Below are positions 2,127-43,279 of a stretch of 43,279 bases of DNA, one piece after another. Source of the DNA: a virus. The DNA lies in the IMG/VR virus record IMGVR_UViG_3300015076_000005, positions 1 through 43,279 of that record. One strand, given 5' to 3'. Under the pieces are notes generated by a model. The model had not been told where the DNA came from. It saw nothing but the letters and a program-made list of their open reading frames with translations, and did no database searches. Numbering within the stretch: the first letter of the stretch is position 1; each line of letters opens with the position of its first letter. The position numbers and the translations under genes are program-made.

Positions 2127-2444
2127 TTAGACGTCGTCGCGACGTTCCTGTTCTGAGCGAACCAGTTCGTTGTGCGCCCAACGGGCCGCCTTCTCCAGCA
2201 CATCGCCGTGGCAGGCTGCTGGGGCGCACCAGCACTTGAGATCGTGACCGTTGAGTTCAGCGAGGTCGGTGAGCGCGAGGTTGCCAGTGTGGATCTCTGA
2301 CCAGAGCCAGAGCCGGTACTTGGCGATGACCGTGGCTCGGTCACCATCCGGTCCTATCTCGAACGGGTTGCCCCAACGGGATGGTCTGCCGATGTAGATA
2401 GCGTCGGCACTGAGGGCCCGCGTGCGCTTGTTGACTACTGCCAT
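2127..2444 (-). CDS. DUF4326 domain protein (105 aa)
   Basis: The start is ATG at 2444 with aaggaggacaac upstream. Two hallmarks of DUF4326 are present: YIGRPSRWGNPF (residues 17-28) and LKCWCAPAACHGDVL (about 69-83). The family is common in actinobacterial and phage genomes; its activity is unknown to me, and the Cys/His cluster suggests metal binding. It is the first gene of the leftward block and diverges from the putative giant RNA that begins about 20 bases away, so both may share a regulatory region. Confidence 0.85.
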   Translation of the reverse strand: MAVVNKRTRALSADAIYIGRPSRWGNPFEIGPDGDRATVIAKYRLWLWSEIHTGNLALTDLAELNGHDLKCWCAPAACHGDVLEKAARWAHNELVRSEQERRDDV

Positions 2445-2459
2445 GTTGTCCTCCTTGTC

Positions 2460-3300
2460 TGAGGGTCGTTCCCTTCCCTCAAGATCTAAATCAACTACGA
2501 GTCGTTGCGCCCCTGCTCCCGCCCATCAGGGCGGGCAGCCCCGGAACGACCAAGAGGGAGCAGGGAGCGCCAGCGACCGGTGGTCTGCAGGTGTGACAGT
2601 TTGTGGCGGGCGCCAGCCGCCACGGGCTGTTACGCCGAAGATCAGCGACCATCTTGGGAGTGGAAGGGGCGAGCAGGGAAAATTCGCTGAGGCCGTCGAG
2701 CCGGTAGCCAGGGAGGCAAGGCCGTCAGGCCGTAGACCGACCGGGTGACCTGGAGGGCGCAGCCCGCAAGGGAACGCTACGACCGAAGGTCGAGGCGGAA
2801 CGGAGCGTAGGAGTGGAGCGAGCGCAGCGAAGCGGATACGACGAGCGGAGTGTTAGGCCGAAGATGCGGCCCCCCGAAGTCGTCAAGTCATTGTCCCGGA
2901 GGGAGGCCGGACCGGCCGGAAGGAGGGACTCAGATCGGGGGGAGACGCCAGCGACCAGCGGGAGCGGCTGGCGTCAGCAGCAAGGGTGTCTGAGGGGGCG
3001 GCGTTACGCCCCCCTCGGTCGAGGTTGAGGTCCCGAACCACCGCCGTTGGGCGGGAGGGCTGTCAAGACGGGTCGCGGGAGAGTCCCGCCAGCCGCAGGC
3101 TGGGAGCGAAAGGCCGTAAGGCCATTGAGCGAAGAGGGGCCCGTGAGCGCAGCGAACCCGCGACCCGTCGTCACCGCGCAGCGGTGTGACAGACCGGAGC
3201 TTGGAAAGGTGGTGGAGGGGCCGATCCTCGACGCAGACAAGAGGCCGAAGGCCGGTGTCTGCTCGTACCCCTGAGCAAGCCATCGTCTGAGCGTGGTGGT
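2460..3300 (+). ncRNA. Candidate giant structured non-coding RNA
   Basis: No ORF here has phage-like composition or a ribosome-binding site, but the sequence is full of perfect inverted repeats. Examples are CCCTGCTCCC 2511-2520 with 2556-2565; GTGACAG 2593-2599 with CTGTTAC 2627-2633 around GTGGCGG/CCGCCAC; CGCTAC 2775-2780 with GCGTAG 2805-2810; GACGCCAG 2944-2951 with 2968-2975; and GGGGGCG 2994-3000 with 3007-3013. A 13-bp helix joins 3067-3079 to 3157-3169, CACCGC 3172-3177 pairs with 3181-3186, and GCAGACA 3233-3239 pairs with 3256-3262. GNRA-type loops read on the plus strand (CCC-GCAA-GGG at 2763, GGCC-GTAA-GGCC at 3112) support plus-strand transcription. Motifs recur (CGCCAGCGACC at about 2568 and 2947; GAGCGCAGCGAA at about 2818 and 3145). 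Size and density of structure recall the GOLLD and ROOL classes of phage RNAs, but identity is not shown. Ends are approximate. Confidence 0.7.
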
Positions 3301-3414
3301 GGTGTGGATCCTCTACGCGCCTGCGTGGTGCATCGAACGTTGTGAGGATGAGTATCAGCGACGGCCCTCTGTGCACACCCATAGTACTGCACCACCATCC
3401 CCGTGTCCACCCTC

Positions 3415-3433
3415 CCCCTCCCGGGGGGAGGGG
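3415..3433 (+). terminator. GC hairpin, possible 3' end of the giant RNA
   Basis: CCCCTCCC at 3415-3422 and GGGAGGGG at 3426-3433 form a perfect 8-bp stem with a GGG loop. No U-run follows, so classical intrinsic termination is doubtful; the hairpin could protect or process the RNA's 3' end. Confidence 0.35.
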
Positions 3434-3563
3434 CCTACCCTGCGCGCCTACGGCGACGGCAGGGGTTTAAACACTGGAATGGGAGGTATAGGTTGGAAGC
3501 GCTTCGAGAATTTTTGGTCTACTCCGTCGTTGACGGTTATCTTCTGAGGACGATCCTGAGGAT

Positions 3564-3579
3564 GGTGAGCAAGCTCACC
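3564..3579. promoter_or_regulatory. Perfect palindrome, operator-like
   Basis: GGTGAGC at 3564-3570 and GCTCACC at 3573-3579 are perfect inverted halves separated by AA. The site lies in gene-free DNA and has the size of a dimeric repressor operator. The Xre protein at 38096-38335 is a candidate binder, but I saw no second copy. Confidence 0.3.
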
Positions 3580-3798
3580 GGGGTACGGGCTTCGATGAAC
3601 GCGGGTGGCCGTCCTCCCTCCCCGACCTCGCGCCCGGTCCCGGTTGTGGATACAGCTTCGCCCTGCGCCTGTTGAGCGGTCGGGCCCCTCGGACATCCAG
3701 CTATCCGGTCTGTCGGTCCCGCCACCCATGGGATCGAGGCTGTTAGGTCAGGTCAGACCAGAGACACCTGCCCTCCGCGGGCAGACGACCCGCGAGGA

Positions 3799-4044
3799 TT
3801 ATTTGGTTGTCGGCTTCTTCTTGTGCTGGTAGCCGCGGGTAGCCCCACCGGGAGCCACGCGGCTGATCTCGGCTCGCGTTAGAACACGCTGGCGAAGGGG
3901 CTCCTCCTGAGGTCGGTGAACGATCTCGGGTAGCTGTGAGCCTTTGACGAAGTGGTACTCCGGTTCAGGATCATCGGCAAAGCCGATTACGTTCCCGAAG
4001 CGATCCAATCTCAACCTGGCCAAAGCCTGTCGATGGTAAACCAT
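3799..4044 (-). CDS. Hypothetical protein with basic C-terminus (81 aa)
   Basis: This lone minus-strand gene lies between the gene-free region and the late operon. The start is taken as ATG 4044 (MVYHRQALARL), because the frame further upstream runs through the hairpin at 4060-4083. It has a mixed alpha/beta composition (DRFGNVIGFADDPEPEYHFV) and a lysine-rich tail (QHKKKPTTK). There is no clear ribosome-binding site and no known family. A hairpin lies just after the stop. Codon use resembles real genes, but the call is moderate. Confidence 0.5.
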   Translation of the reverse strand: MVYHRQALARLRLDRFGNVIGFADDPEPEYHFVKGSQLPEIVHRPQEEPLRQRVLTRAEISRVAPGGATRGYQHKKKPTTK

Positions 4045-4059
4045 TTCGCCGGAAAAAGC

Positions 4060-4083
4060 GAGAGGCCCCCGGAGGGGCCCCTC
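4060..4083 (-). terminator. Intrinsic-terminator-like hairpin before the lone minus gene
   Basis: GGCCCC at 4064-4069 pairs with GGGGCC at 4074-4079, and GAG/CTC extends the stem after one mismatch. On the minus strand it is followed by a run of Ts (cgctttttcc). As it precedes the minus gene 3799-4044, it could attenuate that gene's leader or block antisense transcription out of the late region. Confidence 0.5.
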
Positions 4084-4126
4084 AAGCCTGCTTTGGCGGG
4101 CTAGGCAAGAACAAGATAGCACTCAT

Positions 4127-4145
4127 GTATTCTGTTCGGCAACCA
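4127..4145 (+). promoter_or_regulatory. Possible promoter for the late block
   Basis: TATTCT at 4127-4132 resembles a -10 box and lies only 13 bases before the ATG at 4145, which lacks a ribosome-binding site, so the first gene may be made from a nearly leaderless transcript. A TTGGCG at about 4092 followed after 17 bases by ATAGCA is an alternative. Pattern only. Confidence 0.25.
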
Positions 4146-4750
4146 TGGCGAAGACGAGCAGAACTCCCACGGGGCTTGCTTCGGACTCCAGTGGTGGTCC
4201 GGTCATCGACCCGACGGCCAATGTGCAGGCGCTGGTGGAGGCGGGGCTCAAGCGCCAGGACGACCTCCGTGCGCTCGAGGCGACCCACGTTCGTGAGGTC
4301 ATGCAGCTGCGTTCGGAGTTCAACAACGAGATCCGGCACGAGAACAACGAGCGGCTGAAGGCCCAGCGTGACGTCGACCAGGGGCAGCTGGTGCGCGCGG
4401 CCGAGACTCAGCTGACGACGGCCAACACGCTGGCTGCCCAGGTGGCGACGGCGGCGGTGACGCTGAGGGCGCAGGTGGACAGCTCGCAGACGCAATCGGT
4501 GGCCCAGTTCAACGCGGCGCTGGACCCGATCTCCAAGCGGGTGGAGGAGCTGAGCCGGGTGCAGTTCGCGCAGCAGGGTGAGCGAGCGGCGCAGAGCGAC
4601 TCGCGGATCGACAAGCGTGACGGCCGGGACAGCAACCAGTTCATCCTCACAACGATCATCGCCAGTGCCGGTTGTCTGATCGCCTTCGTGGCGATGCTGG
4701 TGGCGGCAGCCGGCGTTGCGTTGCTGTTTGCCACCGGTCACGTTCGCTGA
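4145..4750 (+). CDS. Coiled-coil protein with C-terminal membrane anchor (201 aa)
   Basis: This is the first gene of the rightward block. The start is ATG 4145 without a ribosome-binding site. A short Ser/Thr/Gly-rich N-terminus leads into a long, charged heptad region (about residues 25-160, rich in E, R, Q, A). A hydrophobic segment follows (about 168-196, FILTTIIASAG... to ...GVALLFATG), and the protein ends GHVR. This architecture fits a cytoplasmic coiled coil anchored in the inner membrane by a C-terminal span. I do not recognise the family. Possible roles include membrane-associated assembly or lysis timing. Confidence 0.75.
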   Translation: MAKTSRTPTGLASDSSGGPVIDPTANVQALVEAGLKRQDDLRALEATHVREVMQLRSEFNNEIRHENNERLKAQRDVDQGQLVRAAETQLTTANTLAAQVATAAVTLRAQVDSSQTQSVAQFNAALDPISKRVEELSRVQFAQQGERAAQSDSRIDKRDGRDSNQFILTTIIASAGCLIAFVAMLVAAAGVALLFATGHVR

Positions 4751-5521: not shown

Positions 5522-5619
5522 TAGACTGCTAAAGTAAATCGAGCCAGGGTTTCGATTGACCTCCTGATCCTGGCTTCCTGTGGAACCGGGGACATTCTCT
5601 CCAGCGGGAGTGTCCCCGG
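5522..5619 (+). promoter_or_regulatory. Terminase leader: possible -10 box and two hairpins
   Basis: TAGACT at 5522-5527 is preceded by TGG, an extended -10 pattern. AGCCAGG at 5542-5548 pairs with CCTGGCT at 5569-5575 around a 20-base loop, and CCGGGGACA at 5586-5594 pairs perfectly with TGTCCCCGG at 5611-5619. The first loop carries, on the opposite strand, the same aggaggtcaa box used by minus-strand genes. The terminase ATG follows 17 bases after the second stem without a ribosome-binding site, so these structures may control its translation. Confidence 0.4.
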
Positions 5620-5636
5620 CTTACACTTCGCCTTGT

Positions 5637-7157
5637 ATGCCTGCTGTGCCCGCACAGATAGCCGGCCGGTGGAAGACCGAGGAAGCAAGGCGACGCGGCA
5701 TCATCAAGAGCTCCGCGCACATGTCGGAGTTCTGCACCGCGTACCTGGGATTCCAGCTGATGCCCTTCCACAAGAAGATCCTCGAGGCCCTGTTCGGAGG
5801 TGGTGAATGGGACATAATGCTCCCCACGGATCATGGCAAATCGACGCTCTGTAACGTCATCTTCCCGATTCTTTCCCTGGCCTCAAATCCCGATGGGGCT
5901 CATATCCTCATCGGAGCAAATGTCCGTGACGCTACATCTTGGGTGGACGTCGTGGCAGATCATTTCCGGTTCAACGAGCCTCTCATCAGGGACTTCCCCT
6001 GGCTTGGACGACCCACCGGCGGCACCACTCGGCGCTGGAATTCCCACGAGATCACCATCGCTGGACGGGGGCGCGGCAATCGCAATCCCTCACTCGCCGC
6101 CTTCGGACGAGGTGCCGGTGACGTAAAAGGTCGCCGCGGAATGACCATCTGCGATGACCTCGAAGGAGCCGAGTCGATCAGTCAGGTAGAGCGTGATCGT
6201 CTCTACGAATGGATGATGAAGGAGGCGCTGAGGACTGAAGAGGACGCCTCGTACAACCCTCGTCGACTCTTCGCCAACATCGGCACTCCGTTCGATCCTG
6301 ACTCGATTCATATTCGCCTCATCAATGAACATGGGTTCCAGGTCTTTCGTCAGCCCTACAAGTACGACAGCGGCCGGCTGATCTGGCCGATGAAGAAACA
6401 GAAGGTACTCGCCCGCTACCGGCAGTGGAGTCCCGAGCAGTTCGCGATCGCGATGCAGCTGGATCCCACCGGGGGCCGGGAGGACCTGCTGTCCATGGAC
6501 CAGATCATCGCCAAGACCAACGCAAAGGGCGGGCTGTCAGCGGAGGGTGTCACCTACATCAACCTCGACCCGGCCAGTGGCTCGCAGTCGACCAAGGCTG
6601 ACTACGCCGGGATCTCAGTGGTGCGGTACGACTGGCCCATAGAGGAGCAGCTGCCCGCCGTCACCGTCCTGGCCTGCACAGAGATGAAGCTGGGGGCCCT
6701 TGAGCAGGTCCACCTCTGCGCGCGCCTCCACGGGGAATACGGTGTGCCCGTAATAGTCGAGGGGAACTCCCAGCAGCAGGGGACCTACAAGATGCTGTTC
6801 CAGCAGTACCACCCGGAGGTTCCGATAATCATTTACATCACCCAGAAACGGACCAAACACGACCCCGTACTGGGGATCTCCATTCTTCGTACCCTCCTCC
6901 GCGCAGACAAGCTGACGATTCTGGAAGAAGGCCAGGGTGCACAGAGTCTTCGTAAGGAGCTTCGTGACGTCGGGTCCAAGCATGACCACCTCATGATGAG
7001 CATCTGGTTCGGGATTCGTCAGGTCTACGAGCGTGGGCGATACCGCCGCCAGCCAGCTGTGAGGATCGTTTCGAGGATGGGTCCGGGCAGGATGAGCAAC
7101 TTCACCCCCGGCCAGCACCGCATAATCGGCGGTGGACAGGAGAGATATGTCGGTTAG
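5637..7157 (+). CDS. terL: Terminase large subunit (506 aa)
   Basis: This is the ATP-driven DNA packaging motor that docks on the portal. The ATPase domain has Walker A PTDHGKST (about residues 63-70) and Walker B MTICDD with Glu176 (169-176). The nuclease domain begins near INLDPAS (Asp311), followed by the VIVEGNS segment and KHDHLMMSIWFG, as expected for an RNase H-like fold. Start ATG 5637 is preferred over GTG 5580, which lies before a strong hairpin. Length fits the family. It overlaps the portal gene by 11 bases. Confidence 0.93.
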   Translation: MPAVPAQIAGRWKTEEARRRGIIKSSAHMSEFCTAYLGFQLMPFHKKILEALFGGGEWDIMLPTDHGKSTLCNVIFPILSLASNPDGAHILIGANVRDATSWVDVVADHFRFNEPLIRDFPWLGRPTGGTTRRWNSHEITIAGRGRGNRNPSLAAFGRGAGDVKGRRGMTICDDLEGAESISQVERDRLYEWMMKEALRTEEDASYNPRRLFANIGTPFDPDSIHIRLINEHGFQVFRQPYKYDSGRLIWPMKKQKVLARYRQWSPEQFAIAMQLDPTGGREDLLSMDQIIAKTNAKGGLSAEGVTYINLDPASGSQSTKADYAGISVVRYDWPIEEQLPAVTVLACTEMKLGALEQVHLCARLHGEYGVPVIVEGNSQQQGTYKMLFQQYHPEVPIIIYITQKRTKHDPVLGISILRTLLRADKLTILEEGQGAQSLRKELRDVGSKHDHLMMSIWFGIRQVYERGRYRRQPAVRIVSRMGPGRMSNFTPGQHRIIGGGQERYVG

Positions 7158-9123
7158 ACCGGATCGCGAGGGCAACCCCGACAAGGTCGTCTACGACGCC
7201 GAGGACATCATGGAGATGGCGGCGGCGCGCAAGCTGCGGTTCGCGGAGCGCGACGAGCTGTACATCTCGATGCTCAAGTACTACTTCCACGGCAACGACA
7301 CCGACGGCGGTGGCGGGTCGCACCAGGTGATGGCCATGGATGCCAAGGGCCGCCCGCTGCAGCGCGATCTCGGGGTGTCCAACCAGATGAACCACCGGGT
7401 GTACGCCAACAAGGCCGCGGCGGTGGTCGACGACTACCAGGCGCTGCTGGGCCGCAAGCCGCAAGTTCGTTTCCTCCCCCCCGATGGCAGTCCCCAGTCG
7501 CAGCTCAAGGTCACCAAGCTCGACCGCTACATGCTGGACACCTACGACATGAGCGACATGGACTTCCAGCAGGCCGAGTGCGGTTTCTTCCTGCCCACGC
7601 TGGGCGATGCCTGCTACGTCCTCGAGCCCTACTTCCCACCCGAGCTCAGGGAGAAGAAGATCGGCCGGGTCGGGATCTCAGCGCTGGGTCCCAACTTCGG
7701 GTATCCCAGCTTCCTCAAGGGATTCCGGCGCTTCCAGCTCCGCGACCTGATCATCTTCATGCTCGACGACCCCGAGGTCATCGAGGAGGAGTACGGGATC
7801 AAGGTCAAAAAGAAAGATGACATGGTTCCCATCGTCACCTACCTGTCGCGCTGGCAGCGTACCGTGGTCGTCGGCGACCAGCAGGTGGCGCACGTCGAGC
7901 ATGACCTGGGATTCGTCCCCGCCGAGTGGATGCACAACAAGATGGTGCGGTCCAATCTTGGGATGCATCAGTTCGCAAACTCAGAGATCCGCAATGTACG
8001 CGCCCTCCAGGATCGCCAGAACTACGCCATGGCGGTACAGGACGATGCGCTGCTCTATGCCACCTACCCAATGATTCACGGCAAGAACCTCGACGCCTTC
8101 AGTGGTGGTCAGCTGGAGGTTGGTGCGGGGGCGGTGAACTTCTCCAACGTGGAGGGTGAGCTGTCGATCCTTGGTAGCACGGCCAACCCAGCGGCCGCCG
8201 GCGATATCATCCATGGCACCACACAGGATATCTACACCGCGGCCGGGACATCCTCTGTTCGTGCCGAGGGTGACCAGCACTCGTCGATCCAGACCGGGCG
8301 GTCGATCCACGCGGCACAGGGGCCGCAGGCGACCCGGCTGGACCTCAAGCAGTCGCTGCTGGGGTATGGGATCGAGCGGCTGAACCAGAAGGTTCTGATG
8401 ATGCAGGAGCGAGTGCCGTCGCTGGCTCATCCCTTCGAGATCCATGGCCGGGAGAAGGGCCAGGAGTTCAGGGAGGAGTTCGATCCCAAGGCCGACATCG
8501 ACGGTTGGTATCAGAACCGGGTGTCATGGGACGCGATGATCGGGATGAACACCCAGCAGAAGACGGTGGTGGCGATGCAGGGCATGGCAGGGAAGATCTG
8601 GGACCAGATCTACGCCATGGAGTTGGTCGGCATCGAGGACCCCGTGAGGATGAGGGAACGCATCCAGGAAGGCGAGGCCGACGAGATGGCCCGCCAGGCC
8701 CAGATCCAGCAGGGCGCGCAGTCGCAGGGTCAGCCCGGTCAGGGCATGCAAGCGGCTCCACACGTCCCTGGAGTGAAGCTCCCCGGAGGAGGTGGAGCTA
8801 AGGGTGGCGGAGGGGCACCGCAGTCGATGCCCTTCCGCCCGCCCTCGATGTCTCAGCCCGGGCCGCAGGGCGGCGTGCCACAGGGCGTCGCGCTGGATGC
8901 GATCCAGAACGCGCTCCACGCCGTCGCGCTCAAGCTGAAGGGCACCGTCTTCGCAGTCGGTGACCTCGCCACGATGGGTCAGTCGATGACTCCCAAACTG
9001 ATGATCACCAACTTCAGGGACCACGAGCCGATCACCACCGCGGTTACCCACATCGCACCCAACATCAAGATCGAGGCGAAGTCTGAAGAGGCGATGCCGG
9101 ACCAGAAAGTCCGTGTTGCCTGA
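7147..9123 (+). CDS. Portal protein (658 aa)
   Basis: The start is ATG 7147, with aggagag upstream. The call rests on position directly after terL and on size. The sequence has an acidic N-terminal helix region, a repeated ALLGRKPQVRF segment typical of portal clip/wing domains, and a long helical C-terminal half. Between about residues 510 and 590 lies a Gln/Gly/Pro-rich low-complexity linker (QGAQSQGQPGQGMQ) followed by a folded tail. At 658 aa it is larger than siphovirus portals and closer in size to podovirus portals. It ends TGATG with the next gene. Confidence 0.85.
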   Translation: MSVRPDREGNPDKVVYDAEDIMEMAAARKLRFAERDELYISMLKYYFHGNDTDGGGGSHQVMAMDAKGRPLQRDLGVSNQMNHRVYANKAAAVVDDYQALLGRKPQVRFLPPDGSPQSQLKVTKLDRYMLDTYDMSDMDFQQAECGFFLPTLGDACYVLEPYFPPELREKKIGRVGISALGPNFGYPSFLKGFRRFQLRDLIIFMLDDPEVIEEEYGIKVKKKDDMVPIVTYLSRWQRTVVVGDQQVAHVEHDLGFVPAEWMHNKMVRSNLGMHQFANSEIRNVRALQDRQNYAMAVQDDALLYATYPMIHGKNLDAFSGGQLEVGAGAVNFSNVEGELSILGSTANPAAAGDIIHGTTQDIYTAAGTSSVRAEGDQHSSIQTGRSIHAAQGPQATRLDLKQSLLGYGIERLNQKVLMMQERVPSLAHPFEIHGREKGQEFREEFDPKADIDGWYQNRVSWDAMIGMNTQQKTVVAMQGMAGKIWDQIYAMELVGIEDPVRMRERIQEGEADEMARQAQIQQGAQSQGQPGQGMQAAPHVPGVKLPGGGGAKGGGGAPQSMPFRPPSMSQPGPQGGVPQGVALDAIQNALHAVALKLKGTVFAVGDLATMGQSMTPKLMITNFRDHEPITTAVTHIAPNIKIEAKSEEAMPDQKVRVA

Positions 9124-12100
9124 TGCCGAACCTTGCTGAAACCGGTGGTGGTTCGCTTGGAGGACTGGTCGACTCGGCCAACGCCTCCGACATCATGCAC
9201 CTCGAAACCCCGGAGGCTGGTCGGAACGCACTGACCGCGGGACTCCAGCAGTCCCATTTCACCAAGGGTTCGGGTCAGCAGAAGCCACAGCCCCAGCAGA
9301 AGTCCTACCAGGGTGACTACTCGACCGGGGATCTCGGCAAGTATTTCGACCAGACCGCCGGCGTGGGTGGCGGCGCACTCAGCGACATCCCGGTCATCGG
9401 CGGACTGGCAGCGCTGGGGCAGTCCAAGAACCGTGGCGACTTCATCAACCGGATGCAGAACCAGCACAAGGTTGGAGACTTCAACCCGCTCCACCCCATC
9501 GACTGGGTTCGTCAGACCAAGGCCGACGCGGAGTCGACATGGGGTAGCGCGACCAGGATGAAGGATGCGCTCAATAACTTTGCCGACCCCAACGCGGTCT
9601 ACCAGTCGATGCACAACATCTGGAGCGATAAACATTCATGGGCCAACACCGGGTTGAATGCCGCCACGCTGGGCGGGTTCGACCTGCTGGGCCAGCTCGA
9701 CAGCAGCTCACAGACCCGCTGGATCGTCAAGGACCTTCTGCCCAACCTGCTCACCGGGCTGGTCCGGTATGGCTGGATGGCTCCGCTCTCCGAGCTGGGT
9801 GCCGGTGCGATTGCGGGAAGGATCGCCCTGCCTGCTACCGAGGGTGCATTGGGGATCGGATCACAGGTCGGGAACATGGGGATCAGCTACGCCACCCGGT
9901 TGGGGCTCACCGCCTACCTGCCATCTCTGCTGATGGACGGCACCACCCCCGACCAGTTTCTCAAGAACCTCGCTTCCATCCCCGGTACATTCCTGCAGGA
10001 GGCCCAGAACTGGCATGGCTTCCATGACGAGGCTCAGAACCAGAGGATGGTGGCGATCCTCTTTGGCGCGATGATGGCCAAGGGTGGGATGCACGAGTCG
10101 CTGACCAGCGTTGCCGCCCGTGTCGGCTCCCACGTTCCCGGGATAGATGCCGCCGGCGGTCTGATGCATGTCGGGGAGAAGTTCAAGAAGTTCCACATGA
10201 ACAGTGACGTGACTGCTCCGACCCGGGCCCAGGTCGAGGAGAGGGCCAGAGCAGCCGCCGATGTCAGCGTTCCCCCGGCGCCCAAGATGGCGCTGACCGT
10301 GCTTCACGACCAGGAGCACTCAGCCCGGGTGATCGACGGTGCGGCCCATCTCAAGGCGCTCGAGGCGTTCGGGATGACGGAGCAGGACTACATGAACCTG
10401 CGGATGGCCGAGGATTCACCGGAGCGCGCGGCCATGCCCTGGCAGCAGGAAAGCGGAAAGACTCCAGATATCATGCCCAAGGCTCCTACTCAACCTGATT
10501 TTCGCGATAACTCGCTTAGCCCACAGAATCGGACGATAAGGAACGAGCGTTTTACCGAGTTGACCAACCTTGTTCACGAGCACCTTTCAGAGAAGGATGC
10601 AATCCTGTTTGATCAGGAGGTTACTTCGGCCGCGGAAGAAGGTGACCACGAAGCATTGGGCCTTCTGTATTCACAGATGCGGGCCAAACTGGGTGAGCAT
10701 GGTGCTGGGTTACCGGCTGATATTGAATCCCACCCACTCGATCATCCAAGTTCTCTAGATCCAGCACTAGGAAGTGCGCTTGAGCAGGCAACGGTTGATG
10801 GACTGGCAAAGAACAAAGCCGTTGTAGATAGCTTCCAGCCAGACAAACCGGTTACTCCAACTCTGACTGGTGATGTCTGGCGGTCATTCCAGCAACTTCA
10901 GACCAAAATTCGCACCGACCTCGAGAATGGGGTGGGTAACCTCCAGCCCGAGGATTGGCGGGTCAGGTCCTCACAGGTCAGCCAGCTCGCGCAGTCGGTG
11001 GAGAAGACTCCTGAGGCCAGGGCGATCCTCGACGACCTGATGCGGGTATCGCATACCGCCAACCGCGACCATCTCGTCGACTTCCTTTCCAAGCCGAAGT
11101 TTGGAGACATGCTCAACCCGGATCAGGTCGGTCATGTGCTGACTCAGATCCAGAGGCTTGATGCGATCCATGGGTACGACCGGTTCTACCAGCGGTTCCA
11201 CGGCCAGGATGAGATTCCGCTGGAAGGTGTCGACGTTGGTGGGCCGAAGCAGGCTGAGTACGACCAGCTTGTCACGGCCCATAAAGATGCTGCTAATGCT
11301 GTTTTGGAGCATCGGAAGGGCCAGCAGGTTGCTACCACAGATGAACAGAAGCATCAGGATTACACGCTCAGTCAAGCGGAGGAACGAGCCGGAAACGCTG
11401 TAATCGGCCACCCTCTTCATGGTGTTGAGCCAACCCATATCCCAACCTTCGAGGAGGGGATCAACAACTGGGCGAACCACGGGCACGGGCTCCGCGCGCA
11501 GGCCGGGTTCCGCAACCTGCTCTACCAGGTCGAGCATGGCTTCATCCCCAATACCGAGGACGTGGTCGGTTCGGTGATGCGCTCACTGCACTCAGGCAAC
11601 CGAGTGTCCCACCACCTCGAGGCTGATGAGTTCGCCACCCAGTTTCACAACTCGATGTTCGAACGGTGGAAGAAGGAGGGTATCGCCGGTGGCGAGAAGG
11701 GCGGACTACTGGGTAGTCCCAAGAAGTTTCGCAAGTTAATGGATAGCCGTGGCGACCTGCTAACCGAGGCGCTCAACTCCCACGAGGCCCTCGCCAAGCT
11801 GGTCCCCGAGGAAGTCTCGATGGTGCAGGCGTTCCGCCGACTGACGCACCTCATCGATCGCAAACGCCAGTCGCTGGGTGACGAGTCTCCTTCGCAGGCC
11901 AGCCATATCCCGCTGGTGTGGGGTAAGGGCAAGCCCTTCTCCGGCGCCCACAAGGCGGCCAGCACCAAGCTGCAGGTCCGATTGGATGCCGCCAAGACCA
12001 AGGGTGGCCGGCAGCTGAGTATTGACTTCAATCCTTCAGATCACTCGGTGTCACTGACCAACCGCTTCGGCAACACTCCCAAGGAAGCCAACCTGAAGAT

Positions 12101-15026
12101 GGCTCAAGCACGCTCCCGGCTGGTGACCAAGCTCCAGTCCGGTGAGGCGATCACCCTGACGGACGCTGACCGGACGGCGCTGCGGAGCCAGGGGTACACC
12201 AACCCCGAGGCGGTCATCCAGATCCTCAAGGATCATTCCAACGAGATGGGCGAAATATCCAAGGAGGTCGCGTCCCGGTTCGCCAACCAGATCTTCCCGA
12301 AGTTTGAAACCAACCTCTACAACATCTACAACGAGTACCTGCCGTCGACGCTCCAGAACCTCCATGCTCGAGAGGCTGCCCACTGGTTCACCCAGACCAT
12401 CCACGAGGATGGGCGCGCAGGAGCCGTGCTGATCAGCAAGCTCAAGCCCGGCGAGCAGGAAAAGATGATGCAGACGCAGAAGGGCAAGCAGGGGATGGTC
12501 CACATGCAGGGGACGGGGTTCCAGGATTGGCTCCTCCATCCCGAGATCAAGGATTACCTCGACAACGTGGAGAAGGCGTTCACGCGCACCCAGGGATCCA
12601 AGAACATCGCCGCCCAGATCCTCGCCTTCCAGGGCCGGGTCAAGGCCAAGCTGGTCTACTTCCCGATGGTCCACACGTTCAACGTGCTGTCTCGTTTCCT
12701 TGCCTTCTCCTCGATGGACATGGGCCGGGTGACCAACGAGATGTTCGGGGACCACCATATGAACGACCCCGCCATGCCCGAGAACGAGAAGGCGTTCCTC
12801 CAGATGCGACGGAGGATGGAGGCTTACGAGGCCGGGGTAATGCCACCGCAGGCCAGCAGCAACGGTGGTGGCTGGATGGGTCACGCTCTGGGCTTCGCCG
12901 GCGCGCTGACCGGGGACATCGGCACCACCAACCATCCCGGGCTGTTCGATTACGGGGACCGTCCCCCCAGGTCGATGCTCAACCGGGCAGTCCACGCTCC
13001 CGGCGCGCTGTTTGGACATCCTCTCCACAACATGAAGAACACGATGGACTATGCGCTCTGGCATGGTGTCGACCACTTCGGCCAGATGGTCTACCACGTC
13101 CAGAAGGATGTCTACACGAAGGCCGGGAAGGATGAGGTGAGCGCCCGCCTGATGGCTGCTGACGATGCCAACAACTGGATGGGACACGTCAGGCCCGAGC
13201 GGTGGAACGCCGGTGCCTATCACTTCGCGCAGGCTGCCCTGTTCGCGCCCAACTGGTGGAGGACGCACGCCGAGCTGCTGGTCCCCATGATGCGCGATCG
13301 GATGGGAGTGACCGTCGACGGCAACTACGCGACGGCTCTCGCCGCTCAGGAGTGGCGCACCCTCCAGGGGTTCACGATGATGAGCATCATCCAGAACAAC
13401 GCGCTCAACATGTTCCTCGCCGGCCGTCCCCTCAACCAGAACCCCGATGGTTACAAGCACCACGTCATGGTCGAGCGACCCGAGATCATCAAGTTCCTGA
13501 AGGGGATCGAGGCGAGCCACACGACTCCCGGTCCGGTGAAGTGGGGGCTCGAATCATTCCTGCCCCGGCAGTACGACAAGAACACCGGGACGTACCACAT
13601 CCAGTGGCCGGACGCCGCCAACGACAAGCACATCACCTTCCGCTCGCCGCTCTACCATCAGTGGGACGACACCATCAAGCCGTTTGGTCCGATGGATGAT
13701 CCGACCAACGAGGGTGCAGTCAAAAAGACGGCTGAAGTCGCGCTGGGGATCTCCAACCCAACCGTGACCGGGCTCTTCCAGTACGCCATGAACATCGACC
13801 TCTACAACACCCTGCACACCGGCAACGTGGTGAAGATCGACCAGGGTGCGCCGGGGTCCACGGGTGGTTACCTCGACCTGCTGGCGCAGCTGGGCGGTCT
13901 GCCGGTCATCGAGAACGCGGCCAAGAACTACCAGCGGGACGAGAACCTTTTCCTTCAGGACGGCACCGTCGTTCCCCGTAGCAGCAAGAGCCTGATCGAC
14001 TCGTTGATGGGCGAGGCCAAGGGACTGGGTACTGATCCATGGGGCACGGTCAACGCCAACGTGGGCAACCTCGCGGGATTCTTTGCCACCCCCCTTGGCA
14101 AGGAGCAGCTCCGCAACACCACGGGCGCGCTGATGTCCCAGCTGATGGGCGTCATGCCGCCCTACCCGTATCAGGCCAAGACCGCGGGCACCCACATGGG
14201 AGAGGACGAACGCTCCAAAGTGCTGGCTGACCAGAAGGCTTACCAGGACAAGGCGCTCGCGCAGGCGACCACCGCGCTGTCGGGCGGTATGGCGTGGTCT
14301 GACTGGAGGACCGCCTACCGGCTGCAGGCGCAGGAGTATCACAACACCCTGAAGAGCCATTACCAGACGGTCCAGCAGGCGACCGGGGGCATCTTCAAGC
14401 TGGCCGAGGACCACAGCGCGATCTACGACCAGGCCACCGACCCGCTGACCGGCAACGTCGACTGGGCCAAGTTCGACACCATGGACCAGCAGTTCCAGGC
14501 CAAGCTCACGCAGGCCCAGCGCGACCAGCTACAGGGCTTCGAGCGGCAGTCGGAGCAGCGCAACCCGATGCTGGCCGTCTACCACCAGACGCTGCGTGAC
14601 TACATCCAGTTCCAGAACGAGGCGGCGACCAAGGTGGGGATGGAACCACAGGCGCTTCGTGCCGCCATCTCGGAGTACGACCGGGCGTTCGGCGATCGGA
14701 AGCTCCAGCTTCAGATCCTTGCTCGAAACCATGGCCTGCGAAGGTATGAGGTGATGAAGAAGGCTTGGGAGACTGACACGCGCAACCCGGCCGGCATCGC
14801 CTACGGGCTGTTCTACGACTCCTCGATCCTGACCGCATGGATGGCGAAGCACCATCCCGGTGGGCAGGCCAAGCTCGACGCCGCCAGGGTCCAGCTGGAG
14901 CAGCAGGTAGCTGGTCCACTTCAGCAGGAGGCCCAGAACGCCTTCTCCAACCTGCCCCAGCCGGAGCAGTCCGCACCTCTCGATCAGGCTGATCCCGCCA
15001 ACCTCCCGTCGGTGTTGCAGCCCTAA
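9123..15026 (+). CDS. Giant virion protein (1967 aa), putative internal/ejection protein
   Basis: The largest gene, starting one base into the portal stop (TGATG). The N-terminal 160 residues are Gln/Gly-rich. Hydrophobic helices follow at about 205-285. A central charged helical region covers about 340-1100. A segment near residues 1160-1200 (AKLVYFPMVHTFNVLSR) and another near 1360-1400 (FAQAALFAPNWWRTH) resemble parts of large polyvalent/ejected virion proteins. The C-terminal 300 residues are helical and Gln-rich. No protease or lysozyme motif was found. No other gene is long enough to be a tape measure, so this may be an ejected core protein as in short-tailed phages. Codon use drops in GC at about 10450-10890 and 11270-11440. 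Confidence 0.7.
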   Translation: MPNLAETGGGSLGGLVDSANASDIMHLETPEAGRNALTAGLQQSHFTKGSGQQKPQPQQKSYQGDYSTGDLGKYFDQTAGVGGGALSDIPVIGGLAALGQSKNRGDFINRMQNQHKVGDFNPLHPIDWVRQTKADAESTWGSATRMKDALNNFADPNAVYQSMHNIWSDKHSWANTGLNAATLGGFDLLGQLDSSSQTRWIVKDLLPNLLTGLVRYGWMAPLSELGAGAIAGRIALPATEGALGIGSQVGNMGISYATRLGLTAYLPSLLMDGTTPDQFLKNLASIPGTFLQEAQNWHGFHDEAQNQRMVAILFGAMMAKGGMHESLTSVAARVGSHVPGIDAAGGLMHVGEKFKKFHMNSDVTAPTRAQVEERARAAADVSVPPAPKMALTVLHDQEHSARVIDGAAHLKALEAFGMTEQDYMNLRMAEDSPERAAMPWQQESGKTPDIMPKAPTQPDFRDNSLSPQNRTIRNERFTELTNLVHEHLSEKDAILFDQEVTSAAEEGDHEALGLLYSQMRAKLGEHGAGLPADIESHPLDHPSSLDPALGSALEQATVDGLAKNKAVVDSFQPDKPVTPTLTGDVWRSFQQLQTKIRTDLENGVGNLQPEDWRVRSSQVSQLAQSVEKTPEARAILDDLMRVSHTANRDHLVDFLSKPKFGDMLNPDQVGHVLTQIQRLDAIHGYDRFYQRFHGQDEIPLEGVDVGGPKQAEYDQLVTAHKDAANAVLEHRKGQQVATTDEQKHQDYTLSQAEERAGNAVIGHPLHGVEPTHIPTFEEGINNWANHGHGLRAQAGFRNLLYQVEHGFIPNTEDVVGSVMRSLHSGNRVSHHLEADEFATQFHNSMFERWKKEGIAGGEKGGLLGSPKKFRKLMDSRGDLLTEALNSHEALAKLVPEEVSMVQAFRRLTHLIDRKRQSLGDESPSQASHIPLVWGKGKPFSGAHKAASTKLQVRLDAAKTKGGRQLSIDFNPSDHSVSLTNRFGNTPKEANLKMAQARSRLVTKLQSGEAITLTDADRTALRSQGYTNPEAVIQILKDHSNEMGEISKEVASRFANQIFPKFETNLYNIYNEYLPSTLQNLHAREAAHWFTQTIHEDGRAGAVLISKLKPGEQEKMMQTQKGKQGMVHMQGTGFQDWLLHPEIKDYLDNVEKAFTRTQGSKNIAAQILAFQGRVKAKLVYFPMVHTFNVLSRFLAFSSMDMGRVTNEMFGDHHMNDPAMPENEKAFLQMRRRMEAYEAGVMPPQASSNGGGWMGHALGFAGALTGDIGTTNHPGLFDYGDRPPRSMLNRAVHAPGALFGHPLHNMKNTMDYALWHGVDHFGQMVYHVQKDVYTKAGKDEVSARLMAADDANNWMGHVRPERWNAGAYHFAQAALFAPNWWRTHAELLVPMMRDRMGVTVDGNYATALAAQEWRTLQGFTMMSIIQNNALNMFLAGRPLNQNPDGYKHHVMVERPEIIKFLKGIEASHTTPGPVKWGLESFLPRQYDKNTGTYHIQWPDAANDKHITFRSPLYHQWDDTIKPFGPMDDPTNEGAVKKTAEVALGISNPTVTGLFQYAMNIDLYNTLHTGNVVKIDQGAPGSTGGYLDLLAQLGGLPVIENAAKNYQRDENLFLQDGTVVPRSSKSLIDSLMGEAKGLGTDPWGTVNANVGNLAGFFATPLGKEQLRNTTGALMSQLMGVMPPYPYQAKTAGTHMGEDERSKVLADQKAYQDKALAQATTALSGGMAWSDWRTAYRLQAQEYHNTLKSHYQTVQQATGGIFKLAEDHSAIYDQATDPLTGNVDWAKFDTMDQQFQAKLTQAQRDQLQGFERQSEQRNPMLAVYHQTLRDYIQFQNEAATKVGMEPQALRAAISEYDRAFGDRKLQLQILARNHGLRRYEVMKKAWETDTRNPAGIAYGLFYDSSILTAWMAKHHPGGQAKLDAARVQLEQQVAGPLQQEAQNAFSNLPQPEQSAPLDQADPANLPSVLQP

Positions 15027-32930: not shown

Positions 32931-33022
32931 TACTTCGTCCTCCGAATTCTGATGATCAGGTAACCGACGTACAGGGTGGTAAGGGCCGTCGCACCGACCC
33001 ACCACCACTCTGCAGGATTCAC
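32930..33022 (-). CDS. 30-aa single-span membrane microprotein
   Basis: The GTG 33022 overlaps the ParB-like stop as GTGA, and its TAA overlaps the next ATG. The sequence is a Trp-rich start (NPAEWWWVG), a hydrophobic span (ATALTTLYVGYLII) and a basic cytoplasmic tail (RIRRTK), a type of topology with N-out. Strict coupling to the ParB-like gene suggests co-production. Function unknown. Confidence 0.55.
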   Translation of the reverse strand: MNPAEWWWVGATALTTLYVGYLIIRIRRTK

Positions 33023-34320
33023 TTGAGCTTGATCCCCAGCTGTCCGAGGATCTTCTTCTCGATCGCCGACCACTTGTACTTGGATTCGGTGAGCTGCCGG
33101 ACATACTCCTGGACGAAGACCCACTCGGCCTTGCTCAACTGGTACGACGTGGCGTGGGCGTCAGCGGCTCCAAGGATGGATTCGGAGAAGCCGATGATGA
33201 GGAATCTGAGGATGTCAAGGGGATCATCGGCCTCCACCAGTTTGCGAGGATTCACGGGGATGTTGATCTCCACATTCCTTGCCTTGAATGCATCCTGGAT
33301 TCGGCCGGGAGATAGCTCACTGAGCAGAGCTTCCATCATCAGGGAGTAGGTCACCTCGTTGATAGCTTTCCGACCGGCCTTCTCGCGAGCCTCACGGGTT
33401 GCGCGCCACTCCTTGTTCGTCTCCCTGGTCTTCTTGGCCGTCTCGCGGCTGCTGAGAGCAAGATCCTGCCCCGTGCTGTTGGACCCTGACGTTTGCCCCG
33501 TGTTGACGTTGTAGCCCGAGTACAGGGCCTCATGGACCGCCGGGGTGGTGCAGACCTCGACCGCCTTCCCATCCCACTTGATGATGTAGGCGTGGCAGGC
33601 GTACTTGCGGTGCTTGGCCGTGGTCATGTTGACCTTGCGCTCGTAGGAGTCCTCCCACTTGCCCAGAGCGGCCACGCCCTTGACATCGCTGGTGCTCTCG
33701 GGGATCCCCAGGGCATCGAACTTGGCACGCACTGCGGTCATGTTCTTGACGGTTTCCCAGCGGTCGACGAGGCGCTCGGCATCGTAGCTGGTCACGAAGT
33801 CCTTCTGCGGGAGCAGCTCGGCCCACTGCTCAGGAGTCGCCTCCATGATCAGGGGCTTCAGGGTACGAAGCTCCGCGATTCCCAGCCGGCCGGACTCGAG
33901 GCCCTCTTTCACGACCTCGGGTGCGACGTGGATTAGCTGCCAGTCCTCGGCCACCATGAAGGTGTTCCTGGTCTTGATGGTCGCGGGATCCTCACCAAGC
34001 TCGATCAGCTGCTGCACTGCGGAGGCAGTCTCCTCGAGGGTCAGGTCCAGTCGCTGGGTGTTCTCCGCGAACTGGGCGCGCTGGTGGTGGTTCTCCTCCC
34101 GCACGATGGCGGGAATGGTGGCCCAGCCAACCTCACGGGCCGCAGCCAGCCTGCGGTGGCCGGTGACCACCACGTAGCGATCCTCGACCGCCCTGACGTT
34201 GATGGGCTGGAGCAGCCCGATGTGGGCCAGCGACTCGGCCAGGGGAGTGATGTCCCCCAGCTCCCTGCGCTGCTGCTCTTCGACGTCGATGAGTTCGATG
34301 GGTACGTCTGCGTAGTTCAT
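33019..34320 (-). CDS. ParB-like DNA-binding protein (433 aa)
   Basis: The start is ATG 34320 with aaggaggtcaa. The N-terminal ParB/Sulfiredoxin-type domain shows LGDITPLAESLAHIGLLQPI and TGHRRLAAAREVG (GHRR 54-57), then a helix-turn-helix-like part (RLDLTLEETASAVQQLIELG). ParB proteins bind centromere-like sites and clamp DNA using CTP; phage versions may act in regulation or DNA protection. The C-terminal 200 residues are helical with a Lys/Arg/Glu-rich stretch (ETAKKTRETNKEWRATREAR). No ParA partner was found. Confidence 0.75.
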   Translation of the reverse strand: MNYADVPIELIDVEEQQRRELGDITPLAESLAHIGLLQPINVRAVEDRYVVVTGHRRLAAAREVGWATIPAIVREENHHQRAQFAENTQRLDLTLEETASAVQQLIELGEDPATIKTRNTFMVAEDWQLIHVAPEVVKEGLESGRLGIAELRTLKPLIMEATPEQWAELLPQKDFVTSYDAERLVDRWETVKNMTAVRAKFDALGIPESTSDVKGVAALGKWEDSYERKVNMTTAKHRKYACHAYIIKWDGKAVEVCTTPAVHEALYSGYNVNTGQTSGSNSTGQDLALSSRETAKKTRETNKEWRATREAREKAGRKAINEVTYSLMMEALLSELSPGRIQDAFKARNVEINIPVNPRKLVEADDPLDILRFLIIGFSESILGAADAHATSYQLSKAEWVFVQEYVRQLTESKYKWSAIEKKILGQLGIKLK

Positions 34321-35288: not shown

Positions 35289-35539
35289 TTCCCCTCCTTG
35301 GTAGTACGGAGAGCCGCCAGAATTCGGAGGGCTCGGTCATGGGCCATCAACTTCTGCATCGGTTCGGCGCGTTTGCCGATAGGCATGTAAAACCGCCACC
35401 ACGGCTTCTCCGGCATCAAAGACACGAGCAACTGATTCCATTCCGCCTCGGTCACCACGTAGCTTTCTAGCTGCTCGGCAGCGTCAGGTTCCATCACGGC
35501 CTTCCTTGGAAGGTGACCCCACCCCAAGGCGTCATTCAT
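35285..35539 (-). CDS. Mosaic small protein with RTTKEG tail (84 aa)
   Basis: ATG 35539 lies behind the GGAGG carried by the repeat at the previous gene's end. ATG 35494 (MEPDAAEQ) is an alternative with its own aaggaagg site, and its surrounding DNA is identical to the start of 37039-37398. The body (EAEWNQLLVSLMPEKPWWRF) is alpha-helical and the C-terminus is ILAALRTTKEGK. No family recognised. Confidence 0.6.
   Translation of the reverse strand: MNDALGWGHLPRKAVMEPDAAEQLESYVVTEAEWNQLLVSLMPEKPWWRFYMPIGKRAEPMQKLMAHDRALRILAALRTTKEGK
35291..35319 (-). repeat. Type-A tail/RBS repeat, copy 1
   Basis: The copy reads ccctccttggtagtacgg then agagccgcc on the plus strand. On the minus strand it encodes (A)ALRTTKEG and contains the ribosome-binding site AAGGAGG for the next gene. 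CTCC and GGAG within it could pair and hide that site. Confidence 0.75.
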
Positions 35540-42965: not shown

Positions 42966-43279
42966 TTACTGCGTGGCCCGGTACTGCCAGTTCTTCGCTT
43001 CCTCGATCGTCTTCACCAGCAGCACCGGGATCTGACGGCGGTTCATCTCTCCCGCCAACGCCCTCCCCCTCACACTGCCGGCCGGGTACGGGTGCACCAG
43101 GAACATCATGTCCCACTGGTCAAACCCGATGTACTCCCCCCACGGGGTCACGCTCAGGAAGCGAAACCCGTGCGGCTGCTCACAGATCTTTCGATCCTGC
43201 TCGGAACACAACACCCTGATCGTCGCTCCAATCGGTAGCGCGGCGTACACCGCCCTCAGAGCCTCTCCCTCGGGATCAT
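42966..43279 (-). CDS. SLOG/DUF2493-like protein, 3' part (split by contig ends)
   Basis: This is the C-terminal part of the gene that starts at TTG 200 across the junction. It reads open to the contig end. The segment FDQWDMMFLVHPYPAGSVRG, then RALAGEMNRRQIPVLLVK, fits the second half of a SLOG/DUF2493 Rossmann-like domain, in which a GS/R loop binds a nucleotide-like ligand and a helix is followed by the IPV strand. Start choices inside this piece (43250) are artefacts of the split. Confidence 0.6.
   Translation of the reverse strand, partial: DPEGEALRAVYAALPIGATIRVLCSEQDRKICEQPHGFRFLSVTPWGEYIGFDQWDMMFLVHPYPAGSVRGRALAGEMNRRQIPVLLVKTIEEAKNWQYRATQ
43154..43279. repeat. Terminal direct repeat, right copy
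   Basis: These bases are identical to 17-142 and end exactly at the contig end, as expected for overlap between the ends of a circular or permuted genome. Confidence 0.85.

Follow-up and report, generated by a model that had tools for sequence, protein, structure and literature searches.

To our knowledge, only a handful of very large structured RNAs have been described from phages, and their function is a puzzle. ROOL (Rumen-Originating, Ornate, Large) RNAs have a length of about 600 nt. Together with GOLLD and OLE (Ornate Large Extremophilic) RNAs, they are described as large ornate RNAs that form homo-oligomers (PMC12286853). Many GOLLD RNAs exceed 800 nt, and ROOL is a phage-borne, large, multi-helix RNA with a weakly structured linker (PMC12286853). 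In phages and prophages, the genes for GOLLD and ROOL often lie close to tRNA islands (PMC12286853); since this holds only often, such proximity is not strictly defining. OLE RNA is approximately 600 nt long (PMC9723947).

The locus compared here with these RNAs lies in a 43,279-base virus sequence (IMG/VR record IMGVR_UViG_3300015076_000005), which was analyzed over its whole length and is referred to below as the window. A cmscan search of the whole window, on either strand, against the 4227 families of Rfam 15 gave 0 matches at gathering scores. Up to E 10, positions 2400 to 3500 gave three marginal matches only, all far below gathering scores, and the covariance models of GOLLD, ROOL, and OLE reported none, which places the region outside these families. 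An earlier note on this DNA had recognized no known class and had suggested such a search; the lack of a match even at permissive thresholds supports its reading. Retrons, CRISPR, group I/II introns, RNase P, and tmRNA were also considered and dropped, as there was no Rfam match and no such protein among the scanned open reading frames (ORFs).

The window is probably a complete genome, because its two ends share a 138-nt direct repeat at 98% identity; the two copies show three differences only, each T/C, at positions 12, 14, and 16. A tblastn search with the terminase (TerL) against 50,697 phages at 1e-5 gave no match, and an alignment-based scan of IMG/VR returned only relatives whose best segments were 20 to 29% identical. 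Judged by its sequence, the phage represents an isolated, deeply divergent lineage with a previously undescribed genome. Its layout is as follows.

5-142 and 43142-43279: terminal direct repeat of 138 nt
2127-2444 (minus) through the record ends to 33019-34320: leftward block, from the DUF4326 gene to a ParB-like gene
2445-4144: longest stretch lacking confident genes, flanked by the leftward and rightward blocks, from the ORF list and codon-usage scores
3799-4044 (minus): possible ORF, between the candidate RNA and position 4145
4145 onward (plus): rightward block, its first ORF at 4145-4750
5580-7157: terminase, in the rightward block, with a PHROG 38 match
Other genes of the rightward block: a 663-aa ORF in the portal position, a 1967-aa protein, the major head protein, and an endolysin

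The 1967-aa protein (9123-15026, plus), directly after the gene in the portal position, had no Pfam or PHROG match. On the minus strand, a 26-nt element, GGCGGCTCTCCGTACTACCAAGGAGG, occurs in five copies, one of them with differences (5' ends at 35318, 35571, 35857, 36149, and 37075); its final part is a Shine-Dalgarno-like sequence that closely precedes apparent starts, and it resembles the start-associated sequences of some mycobacteriophages.

The gap at 2445-4144 sits where the two oppositely directed gene blocks diverge. The claim that this part holds no credible gene was borne out by codon-usage scoring, with the phage's genes as the training set, by which the best ORF overlapping 2445-3700 reached +4.7 bits and most were negative, compared with up to 831 for phage genes. 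A back-translated search with the ORF at 2930-3382 (minus) gave no relative, which speaks against a protein gene. Upstream of the candidate RNA, the plus strand showed no recognizable sigma-70 promoter, and the 3' end of the candidate carries no U-tailed terminator. On the minus strand, a strong U-tailed, terminator-like hairpin is located at 4084-4059, just upstream of the possible ORF at 3799-4044, and is possibly an attenuator of the leftward transcript.

Within the gap, folding predictions delimit the following elements.

2455-3465 (plus): candidate large structured non-coding RNA, its ends uncertain by tens of bases
2458-2679 (plus): D1, a three-way junction closed by helix P1 (2464-2485 with 2651-2674)
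2501-2577 (plus): D1 hairpin P2, GUCGUUGCGCCCCUGCUCCC paired with GGGAGCAGGGAGCGCCAGCGAC
2590-2636 (plus): D1 hairpin P3, a 19-bp helix with five G-U pairs and no A-C pairs
2680-3017 (plus): linker A, with GNA hairpins at 2755-2765, 2780-2792, and 2894-2904
3018-3232 (plus): D2, a rod of approximately 215 nt made of nested helices with purine-rich internal loops
3067-3079 with 3157-3169 (plus): 13-bp helix GACGGGUCGCGGG/CCCGCGACCCGUC inside D2, enclosing side hairpins
3106-3130 (plus): GUAA tetraloop hairpin, GC-GA-AAGGCC-GUAA-GGCCAUU-GA-GC
3233-3434 (plus): linker B, with a hairpin at 3233-3262 (inner GGCC-GAA-GGCC) and a GC-rich hairpin at 3410-3432

Fold stability was expressed as z-scores against dinucleotide-preserving shuffles, single-sequence statistics of a kind that may mislead in GC-rich DNA. 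Positions 2460 to 3434 gave z -4.2 on the plus strand and -2.8 on the minus strand, and background 300-nt windows never fell below -2.2 on either strand. The excess is concentrated in two domains. D1 reached z -6.9 on the plus strand against -2.7 on the minus strand (-125.7 and -98.8 kcal/mol, respectively), and its core at 2495-2650 reached z -7.9, matched by 0 of 200 shuffles. D2 gave z -5.5 on the plus strand and -4.6 on the minus strand, where it is also stable. The plus-strand energies of D1 and D2 (-119.5 kcal/mol for the latter) both lie below those of all 575 222-nt windows tiled over the genome, the lowest of which was -118.1 kcal/mol. The difference in energy between strands is not by itself unique, as differences as large as that of D1 occur in a few other windows.

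The nested helices described in the earlier note are thus real on the plus strand, and its boundaries of 2460 and 3434 were good: predicted pairing extends from about 2455 to 3465, the outermost part without statistical support. Its description of the region as packed with structure fits D1 and D2, whereas 2684-3017 and 3233-3465 showed no clear excess stability (z -0.4 and -1.3, respectively). The 13-bp helix that it had pointed out is present and perfect, and extends to 21 nt at 86%. The hairpin at 3106-3130 may in addition contain a tandem G.A internal loop, a possibility raised by its sequence.

The apical loop of P3 is 9 nt long (GGCGCCAGC, 2609-2617) and holds the self-complementary hexamer GGCGCC. 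Two P3 loops could kiss through this palindrome, which we regard as a lead only, a hexamer palindrome within a 9-nt loop being not rare by chance. The same loop has a second complement in part of a different hairpin, in an inverted repeat of 2601-2620 with 2964-2983, and by sequence this might form a kissing or switching contact. The two copies of CAGCGACC raised the idea that P3 had been inserted there with duplication of an 8-bp target; this was dropped, since a third copy sits in another hairpin.

Strand signals were then sought in the hairpin loops and wobble pairs. Counting hairpins with a stem of at least 4 Watson-Crick pairs, the region has 7 GNA/GNRA hairpins on the plus strand and 2 on the minus strand; shuffles averaged 0.63, none of 1000 reached 7, and windows elsewhere had at most 2 (plus) or 3 (minus). 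The GNRA-type loops claimed earlier for the plus strand are therefore real and enriched, but six of the seven are GNA triloops and a single one is a true GNRA loop (3112-3123, GGCC-GUAA-GGCC). The folds of D1 and D2 together contain 18 G-U pairs on the plus strand versus 3 on the minus strand, and their plus-strand folds contain no 1x1 A-C mismatches. Because minimum free energy (MFE) folding favors G-U pairs on whichever strand is folded, the evidence lies in how the two strands compare rather than in the raw count. The recurring motifs that had been singled out are present, CGCCAGCGACC and GAGCGCAGCGAA twice each, but are unexceptional: 25 of 300 shuffles had a longest exact repeat of 12, and 96 of 300 had an 8-mer that occurred three times. 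Once all k-mers were considered, they did not exceed shuffles and were rejected as a functional signal.

The linkers present a mixed picture. In the MFE model of 2455-3470, helices of high pair probability link 2692-2703 to 3451-3460 and 2802-2839 to 3403-3448; the linkers folded against each other by such long-range helices gave z -1.3, no better than shuffles. Taken together, the two linkers carry 4 GNA/GNRA hairpins, a number reached by 0 of 1000 shuffles, and it is these hairpins that argue best for placing the linkers in one plus-strand RNA with D1 and D2. The GC-rich hairpin at 3410-3432 might be a U-less terminator.

The folding excess, the strand asymmetry, and the lack of a coding signal are best explained if the plus strand encodes a large structured non-coding RNA. 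The region is long and non-coding, with strand-specific structure beyond composition, as in large structured phage non-coding RNAs as a kind rather than as a family. We give a probability of roughly 0.58 to the reading that 2455-3465 (plus) is transcribed as an independent RNA of this kind, most likely an RNA scaffold. In such a model, the plus strand of approximately 2455-3465 would be transcribed independently of the neighboring genes, and the rigid domains, the three-way junction of D1 and the long rod of D2, would be joined by looser segments bearing GNA/GNRA-capped hairpins. The stable helices would place loops for tertiary, protein, or RNA contacts during phage development, and the RNA may self-associate, possibly through the palindromic P3 loop. 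The bolder proposal is a new class of ornate phage RNA of about 1 kb that has two rigid domains, shares no ancestry with GOLLD, ROOL, or OLE, and self-associates into a higher-order RNA complex during infection (for example, by the P3 loop); it is tentative and rather doubtful.

Among the other explanations, the best placed, although unlikely, is that the RNA begins the transcript of the rightward operon (from 4145) as a long, structured 5' leader and would control it by attenuation, antitermination, or processing. The plus strand and the position upstream of the rightward block suit such a leader, as does the lack of a consensus plus-strand promoter nearer those genes. However, 680 nt intervene before 4145, including 3466-3800, where there is no folding excess (z +1.3), and the possible minus-strand ORF at 3799-4044 and terminator-like site at 4084-4059 would, if real, intervene as well.

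The wobble pairs bear on whether the region might act as DNA instead. An element at the divergence point (a replication origin, a packaging site, or a cluster of regulator sites), its RNA fold being incidental, is less likely, since helices that depend on G-U pairs and favor one strand have a meaning in RNA but none in double-stranded DNA. The location between divergent blocks and some palindromic repeats agree with this idea, and GNA loops also stabilize single-stranded DNA hairpins; however, there were no DnaA-box-like sites in the whole window and no iteron-like array, and GC rises rather than falls in the region. Quite improbable is a structured leader on the minus strand, serving the DUF4326 gene and the leftward block. 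Although the region borders immediately on the start (2444) and ribosome-binding site of DUF4326, and D2 is stable on that strand too, D1, the domain nearest DUF4326, folds much more weakly there, and the GNA/GNRA loops favor the plus strand. The least probable explanation is that no functional RNA exists and that GC-rich intergenic DNA in decay owes its good folding to composition or local duplications. In its favor, GC reaches 68 to 71% at 2601-3200, the linkers fold like shuffles, and no conservation emerged from the searches; against it, D1 and D2 stand out despite shuffles that control composition, and decay would not be expected to give the asymmetry in hairpin loops and wobble pairs.

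Relatives of the candidate RNA were sought both directly and through the phage's proteins. TerL had no close relative in IMG/VR, phages, plasmids, bacterial species genomes, or a set of 397 genomes, and none of the loci of 80 terminase relatives carries D1 or D2. The portal-position protein and the major head protein had no relative in phages, nor did DUF932 in IMG/VR. At the DNA level, a blastn search of phages and plasmids with the region gave chance matches only. For patterns from the region in IMG/VR, the matches listed were checked by blastn and nhmmer, and part of them by a covariance model of D1 (R1), and proved to be chance; in bacterial species genomes, the matches listed were judged in bulk to be chance by their number and taxonomic spread, not each being checked. 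The 397 genomes, taken on a guess from the phylum of a Streptomyces, gave no match to the single-sequence covariance models R1 and R2 (D2), and short blastn matches of 20 to 67 nt that were judged chance. Exact-pattern scans miss moderately diverged relatives, the searched sets exclude the near relatives of this record, and R1 and R2 are weak models, each built from one sequence, so the lack of a homologue in the searched sets is not proof that homologues do not exist.

Overall, folding models suggest that the region is an orphan structured RNA candidate that is probably real, and its current value, as a single sequence without relatives, is that of a candidate well delimited by D1 and D2. An unrelated large RNA in so divergent a phage would point to more than one origin of such RNAs, and would provide a new, compact system in which to study the use that phages make of them.

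The earlier note had likened the region to one giant RNA in the manner of GOLLD and ROOL. A single RNA of that sort is not established, as individual significance is limited to two domains of approximately 220 nt, the searches gave no homologue, and the whole window contains no tRNA or tmRNA genes. As with GOLLD, the candidate is phage-borne, approximately 1 kb long, and elaborately structured, with no gene inside; unlike GOLLD, it has no Rfam match to E 10 and no tRNA nearby, and GOLLD's conserved 3' region is not recognizable in it. It shares with ROOL a phage-borne, large, multi-helix architecture with a weakly structured linker, but has no Rfam match or tRNA island and, at approximately 1 kb, is longer than ROOL. 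Like OLE it is large and structured, with long helical rods, whereas OLE comes from Gram-positive extremophiles and anaerobes and its model has no match here. The one hint of a homo-oligomer, as formed by all three, is the palindromic 9-nt loop at 2609-2617. By analogy, the candidate perhaps works like the ornate phage RNAs, yet is not a member of them.
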